Origin: an uncultured Spirochaetota bacterium
GTDB lineage: Bacteria; Spirochaetota; Brachyspiria; Brachyspirales; Brachyspiraceae
DNA: 64,000 nucleotides
Assembly (NCBI GenBank): GCA_944390575.1
Contig: CALXQJ010000002.1
Coordinates: 1 to 64,000, forward strand
Direction of reading: 5' to 3'
Shown here: positions 970 through 28,443 of the stretch, one piece after another
How the letters are laid out: each line of letters begins with the position of its first letter
How positions within the stretch are numbered: position 1 is the stretch's first letter
Notes under the pieces: generated by a model
The model's database searches: none
The model's input: only the letters and a program-made list of their open reading frames with translations
Told to the model about the DNA's origin: nothing
Program-made: the position numbers and the translations under genes

Positions 970-998
970 TTGTGATTTTAAATATTTTGTAATATAAT
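970..998 (+). promoter_or_regulatory. Promoter for ruvB
   Basis: TTGTGA (970-975), 17 bp spacer, TATAAT (993-998). This predicts a transcript start near 1005 and a leader of about 30 nt. No Shine-Dalgarno sequence is visible in front of the ruvB ATG at 1036. Confidence 0.65.
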
Positions 999-1035
999 AC
1001 TTGCCAAAATATATATAGATACAGTAATATAAAAT

Positions 1036-2091: not shown

Positions 2092-2102
2092 TATAGTGAG
2101 GT

Positions 2103-3257: not shown

Positions 3258-3287
3258 TAATTATTATTAATTATAATATTACTTTAT

Positions 3288-4895
3288 ATGCATAATTCTA
3301 ATAAGAGATATTTAGGAGAGTTTTATACTCCTTTAAGTTTTGCTAAGAAGGCTATTGATTATATTTATAAGTATATATCTAAAGAAGAGCTTGCTTCTGG
3401 AAAATATAGAATATGGGATATGGCTTGTGGGCTTGGTAATTTGGAGTATTATTTTGATAGTAGTATTTATAAGTATTTATATATGTCTACTATAAGAGAA
3501 GAAGATGTTTTATACTGCAAAAATAAATTTATAGATGCTTGTATTTTTCAGTATGATTATTTAAATGATGATATATATGATAATAATATTATATATACAA
3601 AAATACCAGAAAAATTAAAAAGAGACTTAGAAGATAAATCTATAAAGTGGATTATATTTATAAATCCTCCTTATGCTACAAGTCAAGTTGCTGGTACTAA
3701 CTCTAAGAGTAAGAAAAATGTTAGCAGTAGCCTTATAAGAGATATTATGCATAAAGAAAAATTAGGGGAGTCTTCAAGAGAGCTTTATATACAGTTTTTA
3801 TATAGAATACATAAAGAATTTTTTAATAAGAGTGCTTATTTGTTTATATTCTCAAAAACAAATTATATAAAGTCAAATAACAATGAGAAAATTAGAAATA
3901 CTATATGTAATTATAAGTTTATGGATGGATTTTTATTTTCATCTATAAATTTTGATGATACTTCAAAACAAGTTCCATTTGTTATATCATTTATTATGTG
4001 GCAAATTAGTAATAGTCATAATATAAAAAATGAAAATATTATTTTAGATGTTTTAAATGATGATACAACTTTTTCTATTAAAAAGAATTATAGTGTTGTA
4101 GATAGTAATAATTTACTTAATAAGTGGATTAAGCGTGTTCGTACATCTGAAACTTTTGTGCCATTATCTTCTGCTATTAAAGTAAAAACTAATGGAAATG
4201 ATATTCGAGATAAGGTTGCTTCTGGATTTATAGGGTCTTTAATGAGTTGTGGAAGTGACTTAATGAAACAAAATTTAACTTCTATACTTTCTGCCCCTCA
4301 AGCATCTGCTGGTTCTCTCTCTATAACAAAAGACAATTTTGAAAAGGCTATGGTAATACATGCAATTAGAAGGAGTATAAAGGTTAATTGGCTTAATAGT
4401 AGTGATCAGTTTATTATTCCAAAAGAAGATATTAGTATGGTTTTTATTTTAGATTGTATAGTATGGACTTTGTTTTCAAGTTCAAATCAAACTTCTTCTA
4501 TGGATAATGTTTATTATAATGAAAAATATTATAAAATAGTAAATCATTTTTATCCTTTTAGATATATGGAAGTTTATGAGAATAATAGTTTTTTTGATTT
4601 TGATGGTGAAGATAGATTTGTTGCTATATATATAGAAGAAAATAAAAAGTATTTATCTAAAGAAGCTATTGATTTATTAGAAAAGGGTAAAGAACTTTAT
4701 AAGTTTTTTTATTCTAATATAGATAGTATTAATAAAGAAAAATTTAAAATATCACTTTTTGATGTTGGATTTTGGCAGATTAGAAAATCTCTTAAAGATA
4801 CTAAGATAGGTGTTTCTTTACTAAAAGAGATAAAATATTATAGAGATGTATTAAGAGAAAATATATTAAAAGAATCTTATAAGTTTATTTCCTAA
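3288..4895 (+). CDS. Orphan N6-adenine DNA methyltransferase-like protein
   Basis: The 535-residue protein has the motif order of gamma-class adenine DNA methylases. The N-terminal GEFYTPLSFAKKAIDYI resembles that of type I/TaqI-like enzymes. The SAM-binding motif I is D44-MACGLGN51 and the catalytic motif IV is N126-P-P-Y129. The C-terminal half (about residues 260-535) has no motif I recognise and could recognise the target sequence. There is no restriction subunit or HsdS-like gene beside it, so it looks like a solitary methylase, or a modification module whose partner is elsewhere. It starts 30 bp after the M23 gene, has no obvious Shine-Dalgarno sequence, and ends 7 bp from a convergent gene. 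Its actual target is unknown. Confidence 0.75.
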   Translation: MHNSNKRYLGEFYTPLSFAKKAIDYIYKYISKEELASGKYRIWDMACGLGNLEYYFDSSIYKYLYMSTIREEDVLYCKNKFIDACIFQYDYLNDDIYDNNIIYTKIPEKLKRDLEDKSIKWIIFINPPYATSQVAGTNSKSKKNVSSSLIRDIMHKEKLGESSRELYIQFLYRIHKEFFNKSAYLFIFSKTNYIKSNNNEKIRNTICNYKFMDGFLFSSINFDDTSKQVPFVISFIMWQISNSHNIKNENIILDVLNDDTTFSIKKNYSVVDSNNLLNKWIKRVRTSETFVPLSSAIKVKTNGNDIRDKVASGFIGSLMSCGSDLMKQNLTSILSAPQASAGSLSITKDNFEKAMVIHAIRRSIKVNWLNSSDQFIIPKEDISMVFILDCIVWTLFSSSNQTSSMDNVYYNEKYYKIVNHFYPFRYMEVYENNSFFDFDGEDRFVAIYIEENKKYLSKEAIDLLEKGKELYKFFYSNIDSINKEKFKISLFDVGFWQIRKSLKDTKIGVSLLKEIKYYRDVLRENILKESYKFIS

Positions 4896-8562: not shown

Positions 8563-9501
8563 ATGAAGAACATAAAAATATCTACTTTAGATGAAAAATC
8601 TATATTAGAATTAGAAAATACAGATGAGGCTATAACTATCTTTATAGATGATCAAGGTACTACTAAAGATAAGTTAATGGTTTTAAATGATTTATTAGAA
8701 AAGAAAGAAAATGTTACAGTTAATATATCTTCTTCTAATATTTCTACAGACAAAAATCATATAGTGGGAATTAATTTATTAAAGTATATTCTTTCTGTTA
8801 GGAATTTAGATTTTTATTCTTCTATAAATAGCAGATTGTCACACTTAAAAGATTTTTCTAAACTTATACATATAAGACGATTAAGATTATATGGAGAGCT
8901 TGAAAGAGATATTTCATTTCTTCCATTAGATCCTTTAGAAGAGCTTGAGAGTATTTATATTGATAATGGTCTTACTCTTAAACAGGATGTTTATTTAGAA
9001 AGAAGAGAAACACTAAGAGAGATAGGAGCTTCTCTTTTTAGAATGGAGTCTTTCAGTAAGAATCCAAATATTGTAAAGATAGCTATTTTATCATCTGTTA
9101 CTTGCCCTGATATGATATATAAAAAATTACCTAATCTAAAGAGCATATATATAGAGAAGGGTAATGGAATTAATAATTTTTCTTTTTTGAACACTATTAA
9201 AACTTTAGAAGAGATAGAGCTTAATGATATAAAATCTTTAACTTCTATTCCTGATTTGAGTAGTTTGAATAATTTAGAAAAAGTTGTTCTTAAGAATTTA
9301 AGAAATTTAGATAATATAGATTATATAATTAATAATAAGAATATCAAAATATTGGTTATAGAGAATATAAAGTGTAAAATTAATATTGAAGAATTATATA
9401 ACATGGAAAGATTGAAATATATCAATATTATTACAGATGATAAGTTATATGATAAAAATGTAGCCAATGCTTTAGGAAATTTAGGATATCAAAAATATTA
9501 A
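8563..9501 (+). CDS. Leucine-rich-repeat-like cytoplasmic protein (hypothetical)
   Basis: The 312-residue protein has no signal peptide. It shows irregular repeats of about 22-25 residues with Leu/Ile spacing like that of leucine-rich repeats, for example LEELESIYIDNGL, LPNLKSIYIEKGN, LEEIELNDIKSL, LEKVVLKNLRNL and IKILVIENIKC (about residues 75-300). Such folds are usually protein-binding surfaces; the partner is unknown. Its start coincides with the transcript start predicted from the promoter just upstream, so it may be translated from a leaderless mRNA. Its TAA overlaps the TAA of the convergent kdsD gene in a shared TTAA at 9498-9501. Confidence 0.6.
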   Translation: MKNIKISTLDEKSILELENTDEAITIFIDDQGTTKDKLMVLNDLLEKKENVTVNISSSNISTDKNHIVGINLLKYILSVRNLDFYSSINSRLSHLKDFSKLIHIRRLRLYGELERDISFLPLDPLEELESIYIDNGLTLKQDVYLERRETLREIGASLFRMESFSKNPNIVKIAILSSVTCPDMIYKKLPNLKSIYIEKGNGINNFSFLNTIKTLEEIELNDIKSLTSIPDLSSLNNLEKVVLKNLRNLDNIDYIINNKNIKILVIENIKCKINIEELYNMERLKYINIITDDKLYDKNVANALGNLGYQKY

Positions 9502-12177: not shown

Positions 12178-12450
12178 TTATGATAACTCAGCCTTTAATT
12201 GATATACATACTTGAGAATAATACTAACAGCCTCATATACAGAATAAGGTATTTCATCTCCAACTTTTAATTTTAATAGTTCATCTGCAGTTTCTGTATC
12301 TTTAACCACAGCTATATTATTCTTATTAGCTATTTCTACTATCTTCCTAGCTAAATAGTTCTCACCCTTAGATATAACAACAGGAGCATTATGTACTTCT
12401 CTGTCATATACAAGTGCTATAGCTTTATCCTCTTTTTTACTTTTTTTCAT
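12178..12450 (-). CDS. FlhB C-terminal-domain-like protein (YlqH/EscU family, cytoplasmic)
   Basis: The 90-residue protein matches the cytoplasmic domain of FlhB-type export switch proteins: KAIALVYDREVHNAPVVISKG, then ARKIVEIANKNNIAVVKDTETADEL and VGDEIPYSVYEAVSIILKYVYQL. It has no membrane segments and no NPTH autocleavage site, as in B. subtilis YlqH. These stand-alone FlhB-like proteins may modulate or partly replace the FlhB C-domain in flagellar export. It overlaps the upstream gene by 14 bp. The order rnhB, ylqG-like, ylqH-like matches the arrangement recalled from Bacillus. Confidence 0.85.
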   Translation of the reverse strand: MKKSKKEDKAIALVYDREVHNAPVVISKGENYLARKIVEIANKNNIAVVKDTETADELLKLKVGDEIPYSVYEAVSIILKYVYQLKAELS

Positions 12451-13486
12451 AATTCTCTAAATATTCCATCTCTAACTTTATATTATCAAATTCTTTTAAT
12501 TTACTATAAATATTAATTTCATTTAATTTATAGTATAATCTCTTATCAAAAAATAAAACTCTTATTATATAATAATCGTATTCTTTTTTTATATCAATAT
12601 TACAAATATCATTTTTATTATCATCATATACTATAAAAGTGAACTTTGTATTAGAATTATTTTCATAGTCTTTAAATATATATAATGATAATTCTTTTAC
12701 TTCATTGTTAATAATAATTGGTATAGGTATAAGAAATGTATTTTCTTTATTTCCTCTTTTCTTTTTATTAGAAGATAAAACTTTTAAAAGAAGTATAAAA
12801 ATACTCTTTTCATCATTAGATAAATCTTTTTTTATACTGTCAAAAAGAATAGACAATATAGCAAAATACCCATTATTATCTACATACTCTTTTATATCAT
12901 TATTATCAAGTAATGTAAATAATATTTCGGTTATTTTATTCTTTATGTTAGAGTTTTTTATTGCTATTAATTTATCAAATATACTATTTAGCATTCTTAA
13001 TTCTTCTACTGTAAAGTAGATTTCATTAGACAGAGATGTGAGTATAAAGTTTTTTTTATGACTATTAATATTAGGTAGATATTTTAGTATAGTTTCTATA
13101 TATAGAATATTTTTTTCACTTGGCTTTATATTTCTTGATACTAATAGGGTAGTGATATCATCATTTTCTTTTTTTATTAGTATATTATCATTAAGATTTT
13201 TATTATTTTTTATATTCTCTTTTGCTTCTTCTATTGTTTTAGCATCTTTTATTATACTTAGTGTAAACATATTATCTTTTTCTACTTTTTCCACTAGTGC
13301 AAAACCTTTATCTATTATTCCATTTTTGAATATAGCTACAACTTTATTGCCCATAATATTAATAATAGCTTTATTATTATCTATTTGTCTCATAAGAGCA
13401 TACTGAACAATATCACCATTTTTAATAGCTTTAGGTTCTTTATTTAGCATATATTGCATTATTTTTTTATTATTAATATTAATCAT
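12437..13486 (-). CDS. YlqG/FliK-like protein (hypothetical)
   Basis: The 349-residue protein has no signal peptide or membrane segment. Its last about 100 residues have the layout of the FliK hook-length control C-domain: PIPIIINNEVKELSLYIFK (compare LPIFLNGExxELxLxI), then a strand-rich region and the final helical part LKEFDNIKLEMEYLENYEKK. The N-terminal part (about 20-80) looks like a beta-rich domain. The motif match is weak; the assignment rests mainly on position, since Bacillus-type genomes place a FliK-like ylqG between rnhB and ylqH. It may act with the FlhB-like protein in export switching. It starts 3 bp after the rnhB stop. Confidence 0.6.
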   Translation of the reverse strand: MININNKKIMQYMLNKEPKAIKNGDIVQYALMRQIDNNKAIINIMGNKVVAIFKNGIIDKGFALVEKVEKDNMFTLSIIKDAKTIEEAKENIKNNKNLNDNILIKKENDDITTLLVSRNIKPSEKNILYIETILKYLPNINSHKKNFILTSLSNEIYFTVEELRMLNSIFDKLIAIKNSNIKNKITEILFTLLDNNDIKEYVDNNGYFAILSILFDSIKKDLSNDEKSIFILLLKVLSSNKKKRGNKENTFLIPIPIIINNEVKELSLYIFKDYENNSNTKFTFIVYDDNKNDICNIDIKKEYDYYIIRVLFFDKRLYYKLNEINIYSKLKEFDNIKLEMEYLENYEKK

Positions 13487-13489
13487 AAA

Positions 13490-14164
13490 TTATTTTCTAT
13501 TTTTTTTACCATAAGATTTTATAGGTTCAAATGAATATCTATGCCTATCGCTTGGACTATACTTTATTATACTCTCTATATGTTCTTTAGTTCCATACCC
13601 TTTATTTTTATGAATTAAATACTTTTTATATTCATCATCAATATTTTCCATAGCTTTATCTCTAGAAACCTTTGCAATAATACTTGCACAAGCAATAGAG
13701 TAGCTTCTAAAATCACCTTTTATTATAGCCTCTTGCTTTATATTGATATCTAAGTTTAGAGCATCTATAAATAGAATATCTGGTTTTATATTTAGTTGTT
13801 CTATAGCTTTAATCATTGCGTATTTTGTAGCATTTAATATATTGATTTCATCTATTATTTTTTCTGATGCAGAATATACAGAGTAGGATAGGGCATTTTC
13901 TATAATTTGATGATATAGTTTTTCTCTTTTTTTAGCAGATATTTTTTTAGAGTCATTAATATCTTTTATTATATTTTCTCTAATAATATTATTTTGACTA
14001 TCTAATTGTAGTGGCATAATGACGGCTGAAACAGTGACCTCTCCAAAAAGAGAGCCACGTCCAACCTCATCTAATCCACAAATATATTTATAACCTTCTC
14101 TAAGGTATTTTTCTTCAAAGTATAATTTATTATCTAAATTATTATCATCTTCAAATAAATACAT
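13490..14164 (-). CDS. rnhB: Ribonuclease HII
   Basis: RNase HII cuts the RNA strand of RNA-DNA hybrids and starts removal of misincorporated ribonucleotides. The 224-residue protein contains the active-site motifs: YICGLDEVGRGSLFGEV (Asp-Glu of DEVGRG) at about residue 30, DSKKISAKKREKL, then FIDALNL and IIKGDFRSYSIACASIIAKVSRDKAM, with Asp and Ser/Ala positions as in the family. C-terminal HKNKGYGTKEH and SPSDRHRYSFEP are also standard. It starts 15 bp after the stop of the giant coiled-coil gene, with no terminator between, so it probably belongs to the same transcript unless a promoter lies inside the giant gene. Confidence 0.96.
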   Translation of the reverse strand: MYLFEDDNNLDNKLYFEEKYLREGYKYICGLDEVGRGSLFGEVTVSAVIMPLQLDSQNNIIRENIIKDINDSKKISAKKREKLYHQIIENALSYSVYSASEKIIDEINILNATKYAMIKAIEQLNIKPDILFIDALNLDINIKQEAIIKGDFRSYSIACASIIAKVSRDKAMENIDDEYKKYLIHKNKGYGTKEHIESIIKYSPSDRHRYSFEPIKSYGKKNRK

Positions 14165-14179: not shown

Positions 14180-17100
14180 TTATAGATACTGCATCGCAAG
14201 GAAAACAGTAGCTCCAATACCAGTCAAAGAACCAAGTACAATAGCTAAATCATTATTTTTAGCTTGAGGTGTTGTATTTGTATTATTGATAGTTCTATTT
14301 TTTCTTATCTGTATAGATAATTTTTTCTCTAAGTTTTCTAAGCTCTGCTCTTGTAACATATCTCTTTGTCTTATTAGAGAATTAGTTTCCTCTCTTGCAG
14401 AGTTAAACTTATTATCAATATAGTTCTTTAACTCCTCACTTTTATTATTGTCTGTTCTTAATTTTCTTCTAACAGCTCTTAATATATTTTCTCTATCTTT
14501 GTTACAAGTATCAATAACATCATAAGCATCTTTAAGTAGATTTTTATGTTTTTCTTCTAAGTTAGTTTCAAAAACTTGATTTCTCTTAGATTGTTCTTCA
14601 AGTTTATTATTAACACTTGTATTAATATCATCTATAAGCTTATTTGTTCTTCTACTATGAGAATTAATTTTCTTATTTGCATATTTTATTAAATCCTCAT
14701 GTGTCTTGTCATACTTACTCATCATCTCTGAAGTATTTTTCATAAGCTCATTATGAGTTCTAGTTAAGTATTCATTAAACTCTTTATTTTTATTATCTTG
14801 CTCCATAATCTTATTAGATATAATGTCATTATGATCTTTTATAGCACTATTAAGATTATTTTCCACATTGCGAATAATATCAGCATTAATAGCATTATTA
14901 CGCTCTAATAAGTCCTTAGTGCTTCTAATCAAGTCTTCATTATTTCTTGTTATAGCATCATTAAGAGCGAAATTTTTTCTATCTTGCTCATCTAATCTAT
15001 TATTAACACTTTGATTAATAACTCTAATTAGTTCATTATTCTGTCTAGTTTGCTCTTCTAAAGATTTATTAGCACTATTTATAATATCTTCATAAGTTTT
15101 ATCATGCTTTCTAAGCATTTCAGTAGTACTTCTGATAAGCTCTTCATGATTCTTATTTAGATACTCAGTGAACTCTCTATTTTTATTATCATTTTCAACC
15201 ATCTTTACATTGATAGTATTATTATGTTCATCAAGTGCACTATATAGATTATCTTGAACTTCTCTTATTATCTGACTATTTAGTGCATTATTTTTTTCTA
15301 ATAAATCCTTAGCACTTCTAATTAGCTCTTCATTATTTTTGCTAATATACTCACTAAGTTGATAATTTTTTCTATCCTGTTCATTAAGTTTAGCATTAAC
15401 ACTTAAATTAATAGCATTAATTAAGTCATTATTTTGTCTGCTTTGCTTTTTTAATGATCTATGAGCCTTACCTAAAATATTTTGATAAGTTTGATCATGT
15501 TTCTGAAGCATTTCAGTAGTATTTTTAACTAAAGCTTCGTGAGTTTTACTTAAATGATCGTTAAACTCTTTATTTTTACTATCCTGTTCCATAATCTTAT
15601 AAGTCATATTTGTATTATGATCTTTTATCATCTGATTAAGATTATTTTCAACATTCTGTATTATTTGACTATTAACGATATTATTCTTTTCTAATAAATC
15701 TCTTGTAGACTTAATTAAGTCCTCATGATCTTTAGTAATAGCCTCATTAATAGCATTAGTTTTTCTATCTTGCTCATTAAGTCTGTAGTTTACACTATTA
15801 TTTAATGCATTAATAAGCTCATTATTTTGTTTTGTCTGTTCTTCTAATCTTCTATTAGTATCATTAACTATATTCTGATAACTCTGATCATGTTTTTGAA
15901 GCATTTCTGTAGTGCTTCTGATTAGAGATTCTTGAGTTTTAGCTAAATAGTCATTAAACTCTTTGTTTTTATTATCTTGTTGTAAGATTTTATAGTTTAT
16001 AATACTATCTTGCTCTTTTATAGAATTATTAAGATTAGCTTGTACTTCTCTCATAATTTCTGAGTTTAGAGCATTATTTTTTTCTAATAAATCTTTAGCA
16101 TTTTTAATTAAATCTTCATGAGTTTTAGTGAAAGATTCATTTAACTCTTGATTTTTTCTGTCTTGCTCATTAATTCTAGAGTTTACAGTTAGATTAATAG
16201 CATTTATTAAATCATTATTCTGTTTACTCTGCTTTCTTAAAGATCTATTAGCCTTACCTAATATCTCCTGATATGTTTTATCATGCTGTTGTAGCATATC
16301 AGTAGTATTTTTTAGTAGAGCTTCATGAGTTTTAGTTAGATATTCATTAAAGCTTCTGTTTTTATTATCTTGCTCTATTATTTTAGAGTTTAGAGTATCA
16401 TTATAATCTCTCATCATATTATTGAAATTACTTTCTACATTTTGAATAATCTGAGAGTTTAGAGCATTATTTTTCTCTAATAAATCTCTTGTAGTTTTAA
16501 TTAATTCTTCATGATCTTTAGTGATAGCTTCATTTAATGCATAATTTTTTCTATCTTGAGCCATCATCTTATCATTTACAGTATTATTAAGAGCTTTAAT
16601 AAGTTCATTATTTTGTCTTGTCTGCTCTTCTAATCTTCTGTTAGTACTGTCTACTATTGCTTGATAGCTTTGATCATGCTTTTGAAGCATTTCAGTAGTG
16701 TTTCTAAGTAGAGTTTCATGAGTTTTAGTTAGATAATCATTAAACTCTTTATTTTTATTATCTTGTTCTAATATCTTAAATCCTATATTAGCATCATGTG
16801 TTTTTATAGTATTATCAAGATTATATTGAACTTCTTTAATAATTTCAGAGTTCATAGCATTATTTCTTTCTAATAACTCTTTAGCACTATTAATTAACTC
16901 TTCATGACTCTTAGCAAAAGATTCACTTAAAGCATCATTTTTTCTATCTTGTTCATTAAGTCTAGAGTTAACAGTTAAGTTTATAGCATTAATAAGCTCA
17001 GCATTTTGTCTACTTTGTTTTCTTAAAGATTTATTAGCCTTACCTAATATCTCTTGATAAGATTTATCATGCTGTTGTAGCATTTCAGTAGTATTTCTTA

Positions 17101-20100
17101 GAAGAGCTTCATGAGTTTTAGCTAAGTAATCACTAAACTCTTTATTTCTATTATCATGTTCTATAATCTTAGAACCTATATCTTGATTATGTTCTTTTAT
17201 AGATTCATTAAGACTAATTTTAACATCTCTAATAATTTGATTATTTAATTCATTATTCTTCTCTAATAAGTCTCTTGCATTTTTCATAAGTTCTTCATGA
17301 TTTTTAGCAAAAGATTCATTTAGAGCAATAGCTTTTTTATCTTGCTCATCTAATCTACTACTTACATTTAAGTTTATAGTATTGATAAGCTCATTATTTT
17401 GTCTTGTCTGTTCTTCTAATCTTCTATTAGTATCATTTACTATATTCTGATAAGCTCTGTCATGTTCTTTAAGCATATCAGTAGTATTTCTGATTAATTC
17501 TTCATGAGTTTTAGCTAAGTAGTTACTAAACTCTTTATTTTTATTATCATTTTCTAAAATCTTAAAGTGAATAGTATCATTTTGTGTTTGTATTTTCTCA
17601 TTAAGATTTCTTTGTACTTCTTTAATAATCTGATTATTTAGAGAGTTATTTTTCTCTAATAATTCTTTAGCACTTTTGATTAAGTCTTCATTATTTTTAC
17701 GAACAGCTTCATTTAGATCAGCATTTTTTCTATCTTGCTCATATATCTTGCTATTTACAGCATTATTAATAGCAGTGATAAGATCAGCATTTTTTCTAGT
17801 TTGTTCTTCTAATCTTTCATTAGCATTAGCTATAATATCTGCATAAGTTTTATCATGTTTAGCAAGCATTTCTGTAGTATTTTTCATTAAAGCTTCATGA
17901 GTTTTAGCTAAGTAGCTATTAAACTCTTTGTTTTTATTATCTTGCTCTAATAATTGTAGTTTAATAGAAGAATTTTGTTCTTTAATAGAGTTATTAAGGT
18001 TATCTTGAACTTCTTTAATAACTTGAGCGTTCATATTGTTGTTTCTATCTAATAAGTCTTTTGTATTTTTAATTAGCTCTTCATGATTTTTATTAATTTG
18101 TTCACTTAAAGCAGTATTTTTTCTATCTTGTTCATACAACTGAGTATTAACAGTATTAGTGATAGTATTAATTAAATCATTATTGATTCTAGTTTGTTCT
18201 TCTAATTTTCTATTAGTGTTATTAACTATATCCTCATAAGTTTTATCATGTTTAGCTATCATATCAGTAGTATTTCTTAGTAGCTCTTCATGAGTTTTAG
18301 CTAAATTGTCACTAAATTCTTTGTTTTTATAATCCTGCTCACGCATTTTATAGCTCATAGCAGTATTTTGTTCTTTTATAGTAATATTAAGATTTTCTTG
18401 AACATCTTTAATAATCTCAGCATTTAGAGCATTATTTTTCTCTAATAACTCTTTAGTATTCTTAATAAGCTCTGCATGACTTCTGCTGAATGAGTCATTT
18501 AATCTTTCACTCTTTCTATCTTGCTCTTCAAGTCTATTGTTTACACTATTATTAAGAGCTTGTATTAATTGCTCATTTCTATGAGTTTGCTCTTCTAACT
18601 TTCTATTAGTGTTATTAACTATGTCTTGATAAGACTTATCGTGTTTAGCAAGCATCTCTGTAGTGTTTCTTAATAACTCTTCACCTGTTTTAGCTAAGTA
18701 GTCGCTAAAGTCTTTATTTTTAATATCCTGCTCACGCATTTTCATACTCATAGCAGTATCATGATCTTTAATAGTGCTATTTAGGTTAGTTTGAACATCT
18801 TTAATAATTTGAGCATTCATCTCATTATTACGTTCTAATAACTCTTTAGCACTCTTCATTAAGTCTATATGATTTTTGTTTATAGACTCACTTAAGTCAT
18901 GATTTTTTCTATCCTGCTCAGTAAGTTTTGCATTTACAGTGTTATTGATAGTATTTATAAGATCATTATTAAGTCTAGTTTGTTCTTCAAGCTTTTGATT
19001 AGTATTATTTACTATATCTTGATAAGACTTATCATGTTTTTGAAGCATTTCAGTAGTATTTCTTAGAAGTGCTTCGTGAGTTTTAGCTAAGTAGTCACTA
19101 AAGTCTTTATTTTTATGATCTTGCTCTACCATTTTGAATTTCATAGTAGTATCATGTTCTTTTATAGTGTTATTAAGGTTACTTTGAACTTCCTTAATAA
19201 TTTGAGCATTCATAGCATTATTTTTTTCTAATAAGTCTTTAGTATTTCTTATTAACTCTTCATGATTTTTATTTATAGTTTCATTTAGATAATGATTTTT
19301 TCTATCATGCTCTGCTAATTGACTGTTAACAGTTTGAGTTAGAGCATTTATTATTTCATTATTCTGCTTTGTTTGATATTCCAACTTTTTATTAGTGTTG
19401 TTAATAATATCTTCATAAGCCTTATCATGTTTCTGAAGCATTTCAGTAGTATTTCTTAGAAGTGCTTCATGAGTTCTGCTTAAGTATTCACTAAACTCTT
19501 TATTTTTATTTTCATTTTCTGTGATTTTGAAATTAATGTTTGTATCATGCTCTTTAATAGTATTATTAAGATTAGTTTGAACATCTTTAATAATTTGAGC
19601 ATTCATAGCATTATTACGTTCTAATAAATCTTTAGCATTTTTGATTAATTCTTCATGATTTTTATTTATTAGAACATTAAAGTCAGCATTTTTTCTATCT
19701 TGATCTTCAAGTCTTGAGTTTACACTACTATTGATAGCATTTATTAAGTCTTGATTTTGTTTGCTTTGTTCTTCTAATCTCTTATTAGTATTAGCTACAA
19801 TATCTTCATAAGCTCTATCATGTTTCTGAAGCATTTCAGTAGTATTTCTAATTAATTCTTCATGAGTTTTAGTTAGATAATCACTGAACTCTTTATTTTT
19901 ATGCTCATTTTCCATTATTCTAAAGCTAATATTATCATTATGTTCTTTTATAGTATTATTAAGATTAGTTTGAACATCTTTGATAATTTGAGCGTTCATT
20001 ACATTATTACGCTCTAATAAGTCTTTAGCATTTTTGATTAACTCTTCATGATTTCTGTTGATCATTTCATTTAGATCAGCATTTTTTCTATCCTGTTCAG

Positions 20101-23100
20101 CCAACTTAGAATTTACAGTATTATCAAGAGATTGAATTAATTGTTCATTTCTATGAGTTTGTTCTTCAAGTTTTTGATGAGTAGCTGTTACTATATCATC
20201 ATAAGCTCTGTCATGCTTTTGAAGCATATCAGTAGTATTTCTTATTAACTCTTCATAAGTTTTGTTTAGATAATCACTAAACTCTTTATTTTTCTGATCA
20301 TTTTGAACCATTTTATAGTTCATAGCCATATCATGATCTTTAATTTTGTTGTTTAGATTATCCTGAACTTCTTTAATTATTTGATTGTTCATTAAGTTAT
20401 TTTTTTCTAATAACTCTTTTGTATTTCTAATAAGCTCTTCATGACTCTTATTGAAAGACTCTGTAAGTCTATCATTCTTTCTATCATGTTCTGCCAATTT
20501 AGCATTTACACTATTATTAAGCATACTTAGAAGATCATTATTTTGTTTAGTTTGTTCTTCAAGTCTCTTATTAGTGCTATGAACCATATCTTCATAAGTT
20601 TTGTCATGTTTAGCAAGCATTTCAGTAGTATTTTTAATTATCTCTTGATGAGTTTTATTTAAATACTCTGCGAACTCTTTATTTTTCTGTTCATTTTCTA
20701 TCATCTTATAGTTGATAGAAGTATCATGCTCTTTTATAGTGTTATTAAGGTTGCTTTGAACTTCCTTAATAATCTGAGAGTTCATTTCATTATTTCTTTC
20801 TAATAATTCTTTTGTATTTCTAATAAGCTCTTCATGACTCTTATTGAAAGATTCTGTTAATCTATCATTTTTTCTATCTTGTTCTGATAACTTAGCATTT
20901 ACACTATTATTTATAGCAGTTAGAAGCTCATTATTTTGTCTTGTTTGTTCTTCAAGCTTTTGATTAGTGCTATTAACTATATCTTGATAAGATTTATCAT
21001 GTTTCTGAAGCATTTCAGTAGTATTTCTTAGAAGTGCTTCATGAGTTTTAGCTAAGTAGTCACTAAACTCTTTATTTTTAGTGTCATACTCCATCATTTT
21101 GAAGTTTATAGCAGAATCATGTTCTTTTATAGTATTATTAAGGTTGCTTTGAACTTCTTTGATAATTTGATTGTTCATAGCATTATTACGTTCTAATAAT
21201 TCTTTAGCGTTTTTGATTAACTCTTCATGATTTCTATTAATAGCTTCATTTAGATCTTCATTTTTTCTATCTTGCTCTTCTAATTTAGCATTTACACTAT
21301 TATTTATAGCATTGATTAACTCTTTATTTTGTTTAGTTTGTTCTTCTAATTTTAGATTAGTGCTATGTACTATATCTTGATAATTTTTATCGTGCTTAGC
21401 AAGCATTTCAGTAGTATTTCTTAGAAGTGCATCATGAGTTTTAGCTAAGTAATCGCTAAATTCTTTATTTTTATAATCTTGCTCTAATAATTTGTTATTA
21501 ACAGCTGTATTTTGCTCTTTTATAGTATTATTAAGATTGCTTTGAACCTCTTTAATAATTTGAGCATTCATAGCATTGTTTTTCTCTAAAAGAGATTGAG
21601 CATTTCTAATTAACTCTTCATGATTTCTATTGATAGACTCATTTAAGTCGGCATTTTTTCTATCATGTTCTTCAAGTTTAAGAGTTACACTATTATTTAT
21701 AGCATTAATTAATTCTTGATTCTGTCTTGTTTGTTCTTCAAGCTTCTTATTTGTACTATGAACCATATCTTCATAAGTTTTATCATGCTTAGCAAGCATT
21801 TCAGTAGTATTTCTAAGAAGTTCTTGATGAGTTTTATTTAAGTATTCACTAAACTCTTTATTTTTAGTATTTTGTTCAGCAAGTTGTCCTTGTACACTAA
21901 TATTTTGTTCTTTAATAGTGTTATTAAGATTAGTCTGAACATCTTTGATCATTTGAGCATTCATTACATTATTTTGCTCTATTAGATCTTTAGCATTTTT
22001 AATTAACTCTTCATGATTTTTATTTATAGTATCATTAAGTTTGTTATTTTTTCTTTCTTGTTCTTCAAGTCTTGCAGTTACACTATTATTTAAAGCTTCT
22101 ATTAACTCAGAGTTTTGTCTAGTATTTTCTTCAAGTTTAAGATTTGTATTATTAACAACATCCTCATAAGCTTTATCATGCTTAGCAAGCATATCAGTAG
22201 TATTTCTAAGCAATTCTTCATGAGTTTTGCTTAAGTACTCACTAAACTCTTTATTTTTATTGTCTTGCTCCATAAGTTTGAAGCTAATGCTTTCATTTTG
22301 AGCATTAATTTTTTCATTAAGATTTTCTTGAACACTCTTAATGATTTCATTATTCATAGCATTATTTTGCTCTAATAATTCTTTAGCATTTCTAATTAAC
22401 TCTTCATGACTCTTATTGAAAGCAGCATTAAGTTTTTCACTCTTTCTATCTTGTTCAGTAAGTCTTGCTTCTACACTCTGATTTAATGCATTTATAAGCT
22501 CATTGTTTCTTTGAGTTTGCTCTTCAAGTTTCTGATTAGTGCTGATAACAATATCATTATAGCTCTTATCATGCTTTTGTAGCATTTCTGTAGTATTTTT
22601 AAGTAATTCTTGATGAGTTTTACTTAAATACTCATTAAACTCTTTGTTTTTTACATCCTGTTCTGATATTTTAAAGCTTATAGTAGCATTATGTTCTTGA
22701 ATAGTGTTGTTTAAGCTTTCTTGAACATCTTTAATTATTTGAGAGTTCATAGCATTATTTTTTTCTAATAATTCTTTAGTACTCTTAATTAATTCTTGAT
22801 GATTTTTATTTATAGATTCATTTAAAGCTTCATTTTTCTTATCATGCTCTTGTAGTCTTGCAGTTACACTATTATTTATAGCATTGATAAGTTCATTATT
22901 TTGTTTAGTCTGCTCCTCAAGCTTTTTATTTGTATTATGAACCATATCTTCATAAGTTTTATCGTGCTTTTTAAGCATTTCAGTAGTATTTTTTAGCAAT
23001 TCTTGATGAGTTTTGCTTAGATAATCATTGAACTCTTTATTTCTACTATCTTGTTGGAGCATTTTTTTGCTCATAGCATCATTTTGCTCTTTTATAGTAT

Positions 23101-26100
23101 TATTAAGATTGTCTTGTACACTCTTAATAATTTCAGAGTTCATAGCATTATTTTTTTCTAATAATTCTTTAGTGCTTCTGATTAATTCTTCATGACTTCT
23201 ATTAAATGCTTCATTCATATCCGCATTTTTTCTGTCTTGTTCTTCAAGTCTTGTGTTTACACTATTATTTAATGCAGCTATAAGTTCATTATTCTGCTTA
23301 GTTTGTTCTTCAAGCTTCTTATTAGTATTATTAATAATATCTTCATAAGCTTTATCATGCTTTTGTAGCATTTCTGTAGTATTTCTAAGTAATGCTTCGT
23401 GATTCTTATTTAAATAATCGCTAAACTCTTTATTTTTATTATCATGTTCCAAGAGTTTTAAGTTTACAGCTTCATTTTGCTCTCTTATAGTGTTATTAAG
23501 ATTCTCTTGTACATCTCTAATAATCTGAGAGTTCATAGCATTATTTTGCTCTAATAAGTCCTTAGCATTCTTAATTAACTCTTCATGAGTTTTATTAAAT
23601 GCTTCATTCATATCAGCACTCTTTTTATCCTGTTCATCAAGTCTTGCAGTAACACTATCATTAAGCGCCTTGATTAACTCATTATTTCTTTGAGTTTGCT
23701 CTTCAAGTTTCTTATTAGTGTTACTAATAATATCCTGATAATTTTTATCGTGCTTTTCTAGCATTTCTGTAGTATTTCTTAATAGAGCATCATGAGTTTT
23801 GCTTAAATATTCATTAAATTCTTTATTTTTATTATCTTGTTCGAGCATTCTTGCTGTCATAGAGTCGCTATGCTCTTTTATAGTAGTATTAAGATTGTTT
23901 TGAACATTCTTAATAATTTCAGAGTTCATAGCATTGTTTTGATCTAACAACTCTCTAGCATTATTGATTAGCTCTTCATGATTTTTATTTATAGATTCTG
24001 TAAGAGCATTATTTCTTTTTTCTTGCTCTTGTAATTTTAGATCTACATTATTATTAATAGCATTGATAAGCTCATTATTTTGCTTAGTTTGTTCTTCTAA
24101 TTTTCTATTAGCATTTTCAATGATATCTTCATAACTCTTGTCGTGTTTTTGAAGCATTTCTGTAGTATTTCTAAGTAATGCTTCGTGAGTTTTGCTTAGA
24201 TATTCATTAAATTCTTTATTTCTATTTTCTTGCTCTAATATTTTTGAGTTTATACTTTCATTTTGTAATTGAATTTTGTGGCTAAGATCATTTTGTACAG
24301 TTTTAATGATCTCAGAGTTCATAGCATTATTTTTTTCTAATAATTCTTTAGCACTCTTAATCAATTCTTCATGATTTTTATTTATAGCAGAGTTAAGATC
24401 TGCATTTTTCTTATCTTGCTCATCAAGTCTTGCAGTAACACTATCATTAAGAGCTTTAATAAGTTCATCATTTTGTTTAGTTTGTTCTTCTAATTTTCTA
24501 TTAGTGCTTTCAATGATATCTTCATAGCTCTTATCATGCTTTTTAAGCATTTCAGAAGTATTTTTAAGCAATGCTTCATGAGTTTTGCTTAGATATTTAT
24601 TAAACTCTTTGTTTCTATTTTCTTGTTCTAATAATTTATCGTGAATAGCATTATTTTGTTCTTGTATTCTATTATTAAGATTATCTTGTACATTCTTAAT
24701 AATTTCAGAGTTCATAGTATTATTTTTTTCTAATAACTCTTTTGCATTTTTCATCAATTCCTGATGATTTTTATTGAATACAGCATTAAGGTCTGCATTT
24801 TTTCTTTCTTGCTCTTCAAGTCTTGCATTAACACTATTGTTTATAGCATTGATAAGCTCATTATTTTGTTTAGTTTGTTCTTCTAATTGCTTATTTGCAC
24901 TTGCTATGATGCCTTCATAAGTTTTATCATGTTCTTTGAGCATATCATTAGCATTTTTCATAAGTTCATCATGAGCTTTGCTTAAATACTCATTAAACTC
25001 TCTATTTCTATTATCTTGCTCAACCATCTTATTATGCATAGCATCAGTATGTTCTTTAATCTTATTATTAAGATTATCCTGAGCTTTCTTAATAAGTTCA
25101 GTATTCATAGCGTTATTTTTTTCTAATAACTCTTTTGCATTTTTGATTAACTCTTCATGACTTTTGTTGAATGTTTCATTTAGAGTATTATTTTTTCTAT
25201 CTTGTTCATCTAATCTTGAGTTTATAGTTTCATTGATGATTTTAATAAGTTCATCATTTTTAATAGTTTGTTCTTCTAACTTTTTATTAGTATGAGCTAA
25301 TATTTCTTCATAAGCCTTATCATGTTTTTTAAACATTGCTGTTGTAGTTTTGATAAGGGAATCGTGAGTTTTACTTAAATGCTTATTAAACTTCTTGTTT
25401 TTATTGTCTTGTTCTAAAAGTTTTAATATTATAGCATCATTTTGTTCTTTAATTTTATTATTAAGATTTTCTTGTACACTCTTAATAATTTCAGAGTTCA
25501 TATCATTATTTTTTTGTAGCAATTCTCTTGCACTTTTCATCAACTCTTGATGGCTTTTATTAAACTTATCATTGAACTCTGCATTTCTTCTTTCTTGTTC
25601 TTCTAATCTTGAAGTTACACTATTGTTAATAGCTTCGATAAGCTCTGTATTTTGTTTATTTTGTTCTTCTAATCTTGTATTAGTATTATTTACAATATCT
25701 TTAAAAGTTTTATCATGCTTTTGTAGCATTTCAGTTGTACTTTTCATAAGATCATCGTGAGTCTTATTTAAGTATTTACTGAACTCTTTATTTTTGTCAT
25801 CTTGCTGATTAATTTTTAGATTAATATTATATTCATAATTTCTAAGCTTTTCATCTATATTTTCAGTATTAGTTCTTACTAATTCAGAGCTTTTATCTAA
25901 AAGATCATTAGCATTTCTTAAAATATCTTCATGGTTTTTATTAATATTTTCAGTAAGTTCTTTATTTATCTCTTCTTGCTGTTTAAGTTTAGCCTCTAGT
26001 GAAGCTGTTAATTTTTTAGTACTTTCTTCTTGCTGAGATAATTTATGACTTATTTTATTCTCATGCTCTTGCATAGTGCTTCTTAAGCTTTTATCAAGAG

Positions 26101-26929
26101 TATTAATCATCTCAGAGTTCATTTTATTATTTTTATCTAATAACTCTTTTGTACTTTTAAGAACTTTTTTGTGTCTTTTATCTATACTTATATCAAATTC
26201 TCTGTTTTTAGTATCTTGTTCTAACATTTTGATACTAATATCATCGCTTTGATCTTTTATCTGATCTTGAATAGTTTGTTTAAGTTCAGCACTTAATTGA
26301 TTATGTTTTTCTATTAATTCTTTAGCACTATCTAATAATTCTTCATTATTTTTATTTAATTGCTCAGTAAGTTCTGCATTTTTCTTATCTTGAGCTTCAA
26401 GTCTTGCATTAACACTTGTATTGATAGAGTTAAGAAGTTCATTATTTTTCTTAGCTTGTTCTTCTAATTTCTTATTAGTATTAGAAATAAGCTCTTGATA
26501 GCTTTTATCACGTTCTTGTAGTAAATCAGAAGCACTACTTAAAACATCTCTTTGAGTTTTATCTAATCTTTCTTTTAATTCTTTAGTAATATTACCTTGT
26601 TCCGATAATTTAGCTTGAATGTCTTCATTAATGTTTTTTATAGCTTCATTATTCTCATTATTCTTTTTTTCCAAAAGGGCTTCAGTATTTTTTACTAATT
26701 CTTCATTATTTTTTTCTATAGTTTTAGCCAACTCTTGATGTTTTTTATTTTGTTCTTCTATTTTCTTTTCTAATTCTTTTTTAATTTCTTCACCATCTAT
26801 ATTACCACTTGATAGGGATATATTGTCTTGAGTATTTTTCAAAGAATCCGATGCATATACGTTGCGATTAAAAAATTCTTTGTTTCTTTTATCCATTTCA
26901 TCGAAATTCTGTAAATCTTTTTTTTCCAT
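14180..26929 (-). CDS. Giant repeat coiled-coil protein with C-terminal membrane anchor
   Basis: At 4249 residues (12.75 kb) this gene fills a fifth of the window. There is no signal peptide. Residues 1 to about 385 are irregular coiled coil. From about 385 to 4100 the protein consists of 131-residue units in strict register. Each unit has two related halves of 66 and 65 residues, marked by THEALLRNTTEMLQKHD and SHEELIKNAKELLEKNN. It is very rich in Asn, Glu, Lys, Gln, Leu and Ile, with no Pro inside the regular units I read. A divergent tail (about 4100-4225) precedes one hydrophobic segment (about 4227-4249, LAIVLGSLTGIGATVFLAMQ). I infer a long cytoplasmic rod fixed to the inner membrane by its C-terminus, perhaps structural. 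AAGGA precedes the ATG. It heads the run to rnhB and the flagellar-export-like genes. No catalytic domain is seen. Confidence 0.9.
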   Translation of the reverse strand: MEKKDLQNFDEMDKRNKEFFNRNVYASDSLKNTQDNISLSSGNIDGEEIKKELEKKIEEQNKKHQELAKTIEKNNEELVKNTEALLEKKNNENNEAIKNINEDIQAKLSEQGNITKELKERLDKTQRDVLSSASDLLQERDKSYQELISNTNKKLEEQAKKNNELLNSINTSVNARLEAQDKKNAELTEQLNKNNEELLDSAKELIEKHNQLSAELKQTIQDQIKDQSDDISIKMLEQDTKNREFDISIDKRHKKVLKSTKELLDKNNKMNSEMINTLDKSLRSTMQEHENKISHKLSQQEESTKKLTASLEAKLKQQEEINKELTENINKNHEDILRNANDLLDKSSELVRTNTENIDEKLRNYEYNINLKINQQDDKNKEFSKYLNKTHDDLMKSTTEMLQKHDKTFKDIVNNTNTRLEEQNKQNTELIEAINNSVTSRLEEQERRNAEFNDKFNKSHQELMKSARELLQKNNDMNSEIIKSVQENLNNKIKEQNDAIILKLLEQDNKNKKFNKHLSKTHDSLIKTTTAMFKKHDKAYEEILAHTNKKLEEQTIKNDELIKIINETINSRLDEQDRKNNTLNETFNKSHEELIKNAKELLEKNNAMNTELIKKAQDNLNNKIKEHTDAMHNKMVEQDNRNREFNEYLSKAHDELMKNANDMLKEHDKTYEGIIASANKQLEEQTKQNNELINAINNSVNARLEEQERKNADLNAVFNKNHQELMKNAKELLEKNNTMNSEIIKNVQDNLNNRIQEQNNAIHDKLLEQENRNKEFNKYLSKTHEALLKNTSEMLKKHDKSYEDIIESTNRKLEEQTKQNDELIKALNDSVTARLDEQDKKNADLNSAINKNHEELIKSAKELLEKNNAMNSEIIKTVQNDLSHKIQLQNESINSKILEQENRNKEFNEYLSKTHEALLRNTTEMLQKHDKSYEDIIENANRKLEEQTKQNNELINAINNNVDLKLQEQEKRNNALTESINKNHEELINNARELLDQNNAMNSEIIKNVQNNLNTTIKEHSDSMTARMLEQDNKNKEFNEYLSKTHDALLRNTTEMLEKHDKNYQDIISNTNKKLEEQTQRNNELIKALNDSVTARLDEQDKKSADMNEAFNKTHEELIKNAKDLLEQNNAMNSQIIRDVQENLNNTIREQNEAVNLKLLEHDNKNKEFSDYLNKNHEALLRNTTEMLQKHDKAYEDIINNTNKKLEEQTKQNNELIAALNNSVNTRLEEQDRKNADMNEAFNRSHEELIRSTKELLEKNNAMNSEIIKSVQDNLNNTIKEQNDAMSKKMLQQDSRNKEFNDYLSKTHQELLKNTTEMLKKHDKTYEDMVHNTNKKLEEQTKQNNELINAINNSVTARLQEHDKKNEALNESINKNHQELIKSTKELLEKNNAMNSQIIKDVQESLNNTIQEHNATISFKISEQDVKNKEFNEYLSKTHQELLKNTTEMLQKHDKSYNDIVISTNQKLEEQTQRNNELINALNQSVEARLTEQDRKSEKLNAAFNKSHEELIRNAKELLEQNNAMNNEIIKSVQENLNEKINAQNESISFKLMEQDNKNKEFSEYLSKTHEELLRNTTDMLAKHDKAYEDVVNNTNLKLEENTRQNSELIEALNNSVTARLEEQERKNNKLNDTINKNHEELIKNAKDLIEQNNVMNAQMIKDVQTNLNNTIKEQNISVQGQLAEQNTKNKEFSEYLNKTHQELLRNTTEMLAKHDKTYEDMVHSTNKKLEEQTRQNQELINAINNSVTLKLEEHDRKNADLNESINRNHEELIRNAQSLLEKNNAMNAQIIKEVQSNLNNTIKEQNTAVNNKLLEQDYKNKEFSDYLAKTHDALLRNTTEMLAKHDKNYQDIVHSTNLKLEEQTKQNKELINAINNSVNAKLEEQDRKNEDLNEAINRNHEELIKNAKELLERNNAMNNQIIKEVQSNLNNTIKEHDSAINFKMMEYDTKNKEFSDYLAKTHEALLRNTTEMLQKHDKSYQDIVNSTNQKLEEQTRQNNELLTAINNSVNAKLSEQDRKNDRLTESFNKSHEELIRNTKELLERNNEMNSQIIKEVQSNLNNTIKEHDTSINYKMIENEQKNKEFAEYLNKTHQEIIKNTTEMLAKHDKTYEDMVHSTNKRLEEQTKQNNDLLSMLNNSVNAKLAEHDRKNDRLTESFNKSHEELIRNTKELLEKNNLMNNQIIKEVQDNLNNKIKDHDMAMNYKMVQNDQKNKEFSDYLNKTYEELIRNTTDMLQKHDRAYDDIVTATHQKLEEQTHRNEQLIQSLDNTVNSKLAEQDRKNADLNEMINRNHEELIKNAKDLLERNNVMNAQIIKDVQTNLNNTIKEHNDNISFRIMENEHKNKEFSDYLTKTHEELIRNTTEMLQKHDRAYEDIVANTNKRLEEQSKQNQDLINAINSSVNSRLEDQDRKNADFNVLINKNHEELIKNAKDLLERNNAMNAQIIKDVQTNLNNTIKEHDTNINFKITENENKNKEFSEYLSRTHEALLRNTTEMLQKHDKAYEDIINNTNKKLEYQTKQNNEIINALTQTVNSQLAEHDRKNHYLNETINKNHEELIRNTKDLLEKNNAMNAQIIKEVQSNLNNTIKEHDTTMKFKMVEQDHKNKDFSDYLAKTHEALLRNTTEMLQKHDKSYQDIVNNTNQKLEEQTRLNNDLINTINNTVNAKLTEQDRKNHDLSESINKNHIDLMKSAKELLERNNEMNAQIIKDVQTNLNSTIKDHDTAMSMKMREQDIKNKDFSDYLAKTGEELLRNTTEMLAKHDKSYQDIVNNTNRKLEEQTHRNEQLIQALNNSVNNRLEEQDRKSERLNDSFSRSHAELIKNTKELLEKNNALNAEIIKDVQENLNITIKEQNTAMSYKMREQDYKNKEFSDNLAKTHEELLRNTTDMIAKHDKTYEDIVNNTNRKLEEQTRINNDLINTITNTVNTQLYEQDRKNTALSEQINKNHEELIKNTKDLLDRNNNMNAQVIKEVQDNLNNSIKEQNSSIKLQLLEQDNKNKEFNSYLAKTHEALMKNTTEMLAKHDKTYADIIANANERLEEQTRKNADLITAINNAVNSKIYEQDRKNADLNEAVRKNNEDLIKSAKELLEKNNSLNNQIIKEVQRNLNEKIQTQNDTIHFKILENDNKNKEFSNYLAKTHEELIRNTTDMLKEHDRAYQNIVNDTNRRLEEQTRQNNELINTINLNVSSRLDEQDKKAIALNESFAKNHEELMKNARDLLEKNNELNNQIIRDVKISLNESIKEHNQDIGSKIIEHDNRNKEFSDYLAKTHEALLRNTTEMLQQHDKSYQEILGKANKSLRKQSRQNAELINAINLTVNSRLNEQDRKNDALSESFAKSHEELINSAKELLERNNAMNSEIIKEVQYNLDNTIKTHDANIGFKILEQDNKNKEFNDYLTKTHETLLRNTTEMLQKHDQSYQAIVDSTNRRLEEQTRQNNELIKALNNTVNDKMMAQDRKNYALNEAITKDHEELIKTTRDLLEKNNALNSQIIQNVESNFNNMMRDYNDTLNSKIIEQDNKNRSFNEYLTKTHEALLKNTTDMLQQHDKTYQEILGKANRSLRKQSKQNNDLINAINLTVNSRINEQDRKNQELNESFTKTHEDLIKNAKDLLEKNNALNSEIMREVQANLNNSIKEQDSIINYKILQQDNKNKEFNDYLAKTQESLIRSTTEMLQKHDQSYQNIVNDTNRRLEEQTKQNNELINALNNSVNYRLNEQDRKTNAINEAITKDHEDLIKSTRDLLEKNNIVNSQIIQNVENNLNQMIKDHNTNMTYKIMEQDSKNKEFNDHLSKTHEALVKNTTEMLQKHDQTYQNILGKAHRSLKKQSRQNNDLINAINLSVNAKLNEQDRKNYQLSEYISKNNEELIRSAKDLLEKNNALNSQIIREVQDNLYSALDEHNNTINVKMVENDNKNREFTEYLNKNHEELIRSTTEMLRKHDKTYEDIINSANKSLEEQTRQNNELIRVINQSVNNRLDEQDRKNFALNDAITRNNEDLIRSTKDLLERNNAINADIIRNVENNLNSAIKDHNDIISNKIMEQDNKNKEFNEYLTRTHNELMKNTSEMMSKYDKTHEDLIKYANKKINSHSRRTNKLIDDINTSVNNKLEEQSKRNQVFETNLEEKHKNLLKDAYDVIDTCNKDRENILRAVRRKLRTDNNKSEELKNYIDNKFNSAREETNSLIRQRDMLQEQSLENLEKKLSIQIRKNRTINNTNTTPQAKNNDLAIVLGSLTGIGATVFLAMQYL
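14722..25738 (-). repeat. Tandem 393-bp coding repeat, at least 29 units in perfect register
   Basis: A short anchor in each unit (GCATTTCAGTAGT or a variant, encoding part of the TTEML segment) occurs at 14722, 15115, 15508, 15901, 16294, 16687 and 17080. I rechecked it at 17473, 17866, 18259, 20224, 22189, 24154, 24940, 25333 and 25726. All lie on a 393-bp grid: 28 intervals equal 11004 bp exactly. Units differ by many substitutions, but no insertion or deletion has accumulated. Confidence 0.95.
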
Positions 26930-26967
26930 GAAGCATCCTTGCGATAAATTATAATATACAATTCCAT

Positions 26968-26996
26968 ATAATACATTAAAAAAATGAAAATATCAA
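26968..26996 (-). promoter_or_regulatory. Promoter for the giant coiled-coil gene
   Basis: On the minus strand TTGATA (26991-26996), 17 bp spacer, TATTAT (26968-26973). The predicted transcript start is near 26961, with a leader of about 30 nt ending in an AAGGA ribosome-binding site. It is back to back with the holB promoter. Confidence 0.65.
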
Positions 26997-27060: not shown

Positions 27061-28443
27061 TTGGCAAAAGTTTTAGGACAAACAACTCCATTAAAAATAA
27101 TGTCTGGTATATATAAGAGTGGAAGACTACATCATGCTTATTTATTCTATGGTGAAGAGGGAGTAGGTAAGTTTGAGAGTGCTTTGAATTATGCTAAGGT
27201 GATACAGTGCGATAGGCAGGATGGTACTTACTGTGATGAGTGTAAGTCTTGTAAGATGATAGATCAGTATAAGCATCCTGATGTTGTTGTTGCTGGTACT
27301 GATGAGCGTTTTAGAAATGCTGAGATTTATTTTAATCAATATATAGAATATAAATTGCCTTATTTATTTAATAATTTTTATACCGCTTGTAGATCTATAC
27401 TTTATAAAGTAGAAAGTATGATTTTTAATAGTTATGATAACTACCCATCTAGTGAGCCTAAAGAATATATGCTTGGCTCTAAAAAAGAAACTTCAAGATA
27501 TGCATTAATAGAGCCTTATTACTTAGCTGTTAATTATACTCTTCAAGAATTAAGAGAAGATAATATAGAATATATAGACTCTATATTTAGAGCAAAATCT
27601 AAAGAAGCCTTAGAAATAGTAAAAAATAAAGGAATGAAGAAAAAAGCAAGCATAGAGGGAGATTTCTTTACAGCTTTAAAAAAAATACATTATAATATAA
27701 TTCATACTGTAATCCCATTAGATACAGTTAGAAATATTATAGAAATAACTTATAGAAAACCAAGATTAGGTAAAAAAAGAGTTATAATTATAGAAGGTTT
27801 AGAACTAATGGATGGTAGAGCCCCTAATATCTTTTTAAGAACATTAGAAGAGCCTACAGATAATAATATATTTATTCTTATAACATCAAATAGTAATAAT
27901 TTAGTTCAAGATGGTATGAAACCATTACTTTCTCGTATGATGTCTTTGGAATTCTCTTCTTTACAAGAGAAAACTCTAAGATCTATACTAATGAAGAGAT
28001 TAAGATTAGATGAAGAAAAAACAGCCTCAGTTATAGATTATGCTAATGGTAGTGTGTCAAAAGCTGTAAAATATTTGCTTGACAAAAAATTAAATACAAG
28101 CGATAATCTTATCGAAGTATTATTGTCTTTTATAGACTCTATTCTTCATAAAGATGCTTCTAAAATATCAAGTATCATAACTCTACTAACAGAAAATGAT
28201 TATGATATTATAGACGTGCTTAAAGAATTAAGTAACATTTTTAAAAAATCTTTAGAAGATAAGTATTTAGAAGTAGATAATAGAAAATATATACTTCCAA
28301 GTTCTATTACAGATGAAAGTATTATTTTTATAATAGATGAGTTGGATATGATTATTAATACCTTAATCAATACTAATTCACAACCGAAAATGATACTTTG
28401 TAAGGCTTTAACTAACATTTATATGTGGTTACATAATTATTAA
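27061..28443 (+). CDS. holB: DNA polymerase III delta' subunit-like clamp-loader ATPase
   Basis: Delta' is the clamp-loader subunit that helps place the sliding clamp on DNA. The 460-residue protein starts at TTG, eight bases after AGGAG. It has LHHAYLFYGEEGVGKFESALNYAK (Walker A, about 24-47), then a zinc module with cysteines in CDRQDGTYCDECKSCK and HPDVVV. Later it has RVIIIEGLELMDGRAPNIFLRTLEEP, the sensor-like ITSNSNN and LLSRMMSLEF. Between about residue 83 and 217 there is an insertion of roughly 130 residues of charged/helical sequence, which explains the excess over the usual 320-350. Whether this subunit is delta' or a diverged relative is not fully settled. The next gene starts 19 bp later. 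Confidence 0.85.
   Translation: MAKVLGQTTPLKIMSGIYKSGRLHHAYLFYGEEGVGKFESALNYAKVIQCDRQDGTYCDECKSCKMIDQYKHPDVVVAGTDERFRNAEIYFNQYIEYKLPYLFNNFYTACRSILYKVESMIFNSYDNYPSSEPKEYMLGSKKETSRYALIEPYYLAVNYTLQELREDNIEYIDSIFRAKSKEALEIVKNKGMKKKASIEGDFFTALKKIHYNIIHTVIPLDTVRNIIEITYRKPRLGKKRVIIIEGLELMDGRAPNIFLRTLEEPTDNNIFILITSNSNNLVQDGMKPLLSRMMSLEFSSLQEKTLRSILMKRLRLDEEKTASVIDYANGSVSKAVKYLLDKKLNTSDNLIEVLLSFIDSILHKDASKISSIITLLTENDYDIIDVLKELSNIFKKSLEDKYLEVDNRKYILPSSITDESIIFIIDELDMIINTLINTNSQPKMILCKALTNIYMWLHNY

Follow-up and report, generated by a model that had tools for sequence, protein, structure and literature searches.

The window analysed, 64,000 nucleotides of a contig from an uncultured member of the Brachyspiraceae, carries a single open reading frame of 12.75 kb in the slot between a holB-like gene and rnhB; it encodes a giant repetitive protein that ends in a membrane anchor (Table 1). 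The other five frames across the same interval contain 234-1001 stops each. The gene takes up ~0.64% of the 2.0-Mb genome of a gut spirochaete, which is 99.8% complete in 19 contigs. Directly after rnhB, on the same strand (12437-13486), lies a gene for a 349-aa protein with no Pfam or NCBIfam match, homologues of which also follow rnhB in two congeners (G001, L051; G003, L056); its C-terminal part may resemble FliK-like proteins.

Table 1. Features of the slot between the holB-like gene and rnhB, with positions in the window
Feature	Position	Strand	Remarks
rnhB (RNase HII)	13490..14164	-	Pfam RNase_HII; starts 15 bp past the giant gene's stop
Giant gene, tail-anchored probable coiled coil	14180..26929	-	single open frame, 4249 codons + stop
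C-terminal membrane anchor, aa 4226-4249	14183..14254	-	end AIVLGSLTGIGATVFLAMQYL; from hydropathy, alignment and profile search
Decayed last unit and non-repeated linker, aa 4062-4225	14255..14746	-	precedes the membrane helix
28 complete 131-residue (393-bp) units, aa 394-4061	14747..25750	-	indel-free; hydrophobic seam unbroken
N-terminal part, aa 1-393	25751..26929	-	first ~45 residues non-repeated, then degenerate helical repeats
AAGGA ribosome-binding-like site	26936-26940	-	upstream of the giant gene
Promoter-like site TTGATA-17-TATTAT	26968..26996	-	10/12 consensus matches; such sites no commoner than in shuffles
holB-like gene (DNA polymerase III delta' subunit)	27061..28443	+	Pfam DNA_pol3_delta2; divergent, other side of the slot

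Protein autocorrelation reached 0.58 at lag 131, lay at 0.56-0.58 at lags 262 and 393 and was still 0.56 at lag 655, the best lag other than multiples of 131 giving 0.19; DNA autocorrelation was maximal at 393 (0.705). Each of the 28 complete units matches the unit consensus at 84-108 of 131 residues, and a weak unit flanks them at either edge (29/131 and 38/131 matches). When lags of 100-159 were scanned, the best lag of each core unit was exactly 131, so there has been no net length change over 11 kb; the '4% indels' that TRF reported in the array are a product of its own consensus alignment. These results bear out an earlier note on this DNA, which had described at least 29 units without insertion or deletion, diverged by many substitutions, and had proposed autocorrelation as a check; its 29 anchor sites on a 393-bp grid agree with our unit map, the 29th falling in the decayed C-terminal unit. 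It missed the genus-wide family described below, and also the higher-order nature of the 131-residue unit, which is a dimer of a 69-residue one.

Exact repeats in the gene reach 54 bp at most, and every 75-mer occurs just once, making collapse of the assembly by ordinary short reads, a concern of the earlier note, unlikely. That the gene is an artefact of assembly or annotation is barely credible: the assembly is a draft, but the units are distinct enough to be assembled uniquely, the frame is open throughout, and orthologues are found in independent assemblies.

Adjacent units differ with pS 0.515 and pN 0.196 (median dS ~0.9, dN ~0.24), corresponding to a dN/dS of ~0.25. Random synonymous codons would give a synonymous difference of 64-70%, versus 51% seen; with synonymous divergence this near the random level, the array is old and lacks recent homogenisation as a whole, a younger-looking patch in units 20-24 (pS ~0.35) excepted.

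The hydrophobic-residue spectrum of all 4249 residues is dominated by a single peak at 3.638 residues, whose power of 57 compares with a shuffle maximum of 1.5, and the local hydrophobic period in windows of 50, 80 and 100 residues, which are too short to detect the 131-residue repeat, is 3.638-3.639. Thirty-six turns of 3.638 residues make 130.97 residues, so that with a unit of 131 residues the hydrophobic seam closes from unit to unit; because ~1 in 4 integer lengths would close the seam within 45 degrees, this match is a consistency and not a proof. Arithmetically, 131 residues can be divided into ten hendecads and three heptads. The phase of the seam is coherent through the 28 units (-22 to -31 degrees), and an uncharged seam, from which K, R, E and D are all absent at -40 to +60 degrees around the helix, stays in register along ~0.55 micrometre. 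The sequence thus supports a unit length held by helical register, with register the probable object of selection, and would offer a clear case of a repeat-unit length explained by helix geometry.

Leu, Ile, Met and Phe are present in the seam, whose flanks are 57-86% bulky residues, while Asn, His, Gln and Thr make up much of its centre (N/H/Q/S/T ~42-76% between -20 and +40 degrees), so that a coil built on it would hold less firmly than a leucine zipper. The Asn and His layers are conserved; unit-to-unit entropy is ~0.5 bits in the seam, compared with 1.6-1.8 for the opposite face, and this combination of a conserved inside and a drifting outside is the pattern of a structural rod. AlphaFold2 predictions for two stretches, as single-chain models that are silent on oligomers, gave helices 120-140 residues long (pLDDT by block mostly 77-94, pTM 0.25); the decayed last unit and the linker before the anchor were predicted to be helical with low-confidence breaks. 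Together, the hydrophobic period and the predicted helices support the earlier note's proposal of a long helical, probably coiled-coil rod.

A giant amphipathic helix could instead lie on the inner membrane and coat it in the manner of perilipin 4, with no coiled coil. The 11-residue-type periodicity, the amphipathicity, the membrane anchor at one end and the weak matches of one orthologue to Apolipoprotein A1/A4/E (36 bits versus a cut-off of 90) would all fit, and there is a published precedent in Plin4, which is described as a giant helix made of repeats with an 11-residue period (PMC5889406, PMC8064757) and without bulky hydrophobics (PMC8064757). The hydrophobic face of the giant protein is, however, narrow, with bulky residues at its edges and a largely polar centre, and no bulky-free membrane face of the Plin4 type was found in its seam; the repeats also have a net charge of -102 over 3668 residues, which is poor for an anionic inner membrane. 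As far as sequence can tell, the polar centre and the net negative charge count against a helix that coats lipid, which we consider unlikely. Plin4 itself, to our knowledge, has no membrane anchor.

The sole strongly hydrophobic stretch of the giant protein is its C-terminal anchor, the best 19-residue mean elsewhere being 0.04, and no signal peptide is visible by hydropathy, as the earlier note had also read the protein. The only proline among the 4249 residues, aa 4221, lies within the linker just before the anchor. Positive residues precede the membrane helix; by the positive-inside rule such a flank stays cytoplasmic, so these residues and the lack of a signal peptide favour an N-in orientation. 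We infer that the rod is cytoplasmic and that a tail of few residues would be periplasmic.

By position, the giant gene is orthologous to an undescribed Brachyspira gene that immediately precedes rnhB, on the same strand, and is kept in congeners with a readable slot. Complete copies, leaving out those interrupted by a contig end or by masked bases, encode 50 (G001), 147 (G003), 643, 644, 712, 713, 714, 724, 1172 (G010), 1419, 1556, 1557, 1596, 1707, 1829 and 4249 residues. The orthologues share with the giant protein a helical period (3.62-3.64 residues) and a C-terminal membrane helix, found at the end of every compared copy; they differ from it in length and in having unit lengths that are other than 131 or irregular. 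Across the genus the anchor follows the pattern ...S(L/I/V)......(L/I)AxQxL, with (L/I)AxQxL in most compared copies; the 50- and 147-residue forms keep the membrane helix and lack this exact ending. The giant protein carries the C-terminal S...(L/I)AxQxL and matches the C-terminal profile with E = 1.2e-26, its own sequence being one row of that profile. When the best 16 candidates per genome were scored in 296 genomes of the phylum, the 24 positive genomes were all Brachyspira, and no relative outside the genus was found; in the three sister-genus genomes compared the slot gene is absent and other genes lie beside holB. Five short frames elsewhere in congeners matched the membrane helix alone; the two of these that were scanned held no frame of at least 60 aa.

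No Pfam or NCBIfam family matched the giant protein, and a sequence search with two 131-residue units matched no PDB chain. Pfam matches of the orthologues (DapB, SQAPI, Exonuc_VII_L and Apolipoprotein, with two just above cut-off) and a PHROG match (best stretch 26 residues) were discounted as effects of composition, since they covered unrelated folds and differed from orthologue to orthologue, and the adhesin BPP43_05035 was rejected as a relative, being an unrelated beta-propeller. A published description of the slot gene was not found in a literature search covering few subscription papers. The slot thus holds an undescribed genus-wide family with a fixed chromosomal place and an ~85-fold length range around one membrane anchor, which would provide a natural series for membrane-tethered bacterial rods of roughly 0, 20, 100, 200 or 600 nm.

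With orthologue lengths running from 50 to 4249, total length is not a genus-wide constant. The earlier note had suggested selection on register or on total length: the former is supported, given 36 x 3.638 = 130.97, whereas a length fixed across the genus is not supported, the orthologues having 50-1829 residues. Orthology of the 50-residue frame in G001, which is based on position, a ribosome-binding-like site and the membrane helix, is less sure than that of the other copies. In G005 the slot gene is broken into a 134-residue N-terminal piece by holB (L053:11074-11478) and a 209-residue C-terminal piece by rnhB (L055:6476-7105), on different contigs, reflecting either rearrangement or misassembly; in its close relatives G004 and G006, holB and rnhB flank the slot on either side. 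The 50-residue form and the broken gene indicate that a long rod is dispensable in some species. Main-clade orthologues (G007, G009 and G022; L043, L040 and L039) carry a 4-residue DEKI microrepeat and, unlike the indel-free giant array, show many indels of 4, 8, 11 and 12 residues between close relatives; those of 4, 8 and 12 are common and probably stem from slippage of the DEKI motif, so we do not count the surplus of 4-residue indels as proving that register is selected.

The genome that carries the giant gene, 2.0 Mb in size, is the smallest of the 26 Brachyspira genomes compared (congeners, 2.5-3.4 Mb), and in a HolB tree it forms a long, deep branch within Brachyspira (80/78 support). 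Its size suggests reductive evolution, yet it holds the longest measured version of the slot gene. These lengths bear on the main rival reading, which places the function in and close around the anchor and treats the rod as a length-tolerant appendage, freely expandable and helical mainly as a guard against misfolding, its length having no role. Orthologues of 50 and 147 residues that retain the anchor, the two separated pieces in G005, and near-identical orthologues that differ by whole units are all what it would predict; it is harder to reconcile with a 12.75-kb gene kept intact in the genus's smallest genome, with a dN/dS of ~0.25 and zero stops or indels at dS ~1, or with the conserved Asn and His layers, and we regard it as a real but minor possibility.

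The same lengths make it very unlikely that the rod is a molecular ruler whose length, species by species, sets or matches the cell diameter or the flagellar-pole distance. Computed at 0.15 nm per residue, a rod of ~0.6 micrometre is of the order of the cell width, which is 0.3-0.45 micrometre in described species other than the host of the giant gene (PMC4603578, PMC3035287), and the indel-free array would suit a ruler; but near-identical orthologues change length by whole units, and G005, closely related to species with long rods, has a broken slot gene.

Relatives also bear on how the 131-residue unit arose. In the five nearest species the slot gene still repeats the 69-residue unit singly, not as a double unit, and the 131-residue unit aligns to 2 x 69 with a score of 339 (80 ± 12 when shuffled), 62/131 identities and one 7-residue gap; on this alignment the unit is 69 + 62, that is, a dimer of a putative ancestral 69-residue unit minus one heptad. 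The N-terminal edge of the giant protein keeps the older spacing of 138 (2 x 69), with aa 132-262 giving 39/131 matches at lag 138 versus 14 at 131. Within the 69-residue clade, orthologues of 93-97% identity differ in length by a single whole 69-residue unit, and the 131-residue unit itself was not found in any measured slot orthologue. The homology to the 69-residue unit, the 7-residue gap, the lag-138 relic and the whole-unit changes point to a likely history in which the 69-residue unit was doubled, a heptad was lost and the double unit was then amplified.

We consider it moderately probable that the giant protein forms a cytoplasmic coiled-coil rod of two or more strands, ~0.6 micrometre long and tail-anchored in the inner membrane, which would serve as a scaffold or tether and would have grown by register-preserving amplification. 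A constant anchor, a variable rod, a conserved core, a drifting surface and register-keeping units suggest a scaffold or tether of self-associating helices, a function that we read from shape alone. One C-terminal helix would hold the rod in the inner membrane, leaving the N terminus free in the cytoplasm. The giant gene would then be an overgrown member of a Brachyspira-specific family with a constant anchor and a modular rod: 69-residue helical units would have been duplicated, one pair would have lost a heptad, and the resulting 131-residue double unit would have risen to ~29 copies. Units could be added without breaking the hydrophobic seam because 131 residues make 36 turns, and later indels would be removed by selection because the seam would shift by ~100 degrees per residue. 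Attached to the membrane, such rods may lie side by side with their own copies or reach cytoplasmic partners across the cell.

By analogy, the best reading of the slot protein is that it is giantin-like in layout and not homologous. Golgins, giantin among them, are very long coiled coils in the cytosol that are fixed to a membrane by a single C-terminal anchor, an architecture with which the sequence of the giant protein is compatible; Pfam and NCBIfam scans and a PDB search with two units found no golgin homology. A 2016 review (PMC5082667) named the coiled coil of giantin (GOLGB1), at 3056 residues, as the longest identified, and the giant protein is longer. Giantin differs in being a eukaryotic Golgi protein of constant length between species, whereas the Brachyspira slot family varies in length and the giant protein has exact tandem units and a hendecad-rich periodicity. 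A bacterial golgin-like system, its reach tuned from ~0 to 600 nm by register-preserving units and its rod length tracking cell diameter or periplasmic flagella number between species, is a more speculative extension that we hold to be distinctly improbable.

Crescentin and intermediate-filament-like proteins are described as cytoplasmic coiled coils with a role in cell shape (PMC10873595). The giant protein is likewise a candidate cytoplasmic coiled coil, for which a shape role is at most possible; crescentin-type proteins are far shorter, and the giant protein has no profile match to any family. We know of no tail anchor in crescentin-type cytoskeletal proteins. The Pfam and NCBIfam scans likewise gave no family match that would link the giant protein to CfpA, the cytoplasmic filament protein of spirochaetes. 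Pfam and NCBIfam scans found no ATPase head domain of the SMC/Rad50 kind in the giant protein, and the SMC match of one orthologue scored 17.9 bits versus a cut-off of 567.

Elsewhere in the window, a 312-aa protein (8563-9501, forward strand) has a sequence that reads like leucine-rich repeats, and a 578-aa protein with no Pfam match (57579-59315, reverse strand) is encoded with a 24-bp tandem repeat of Ala/Lys/Glu type at 58429-58627. At 45992-53073 on the reverse strand, an Omp85-type gene with five POTRA stretches overlaps a 1486-aa gene to which no Pfam family matched; the two genes could form a TamB-like plus Omp85 arrangement.
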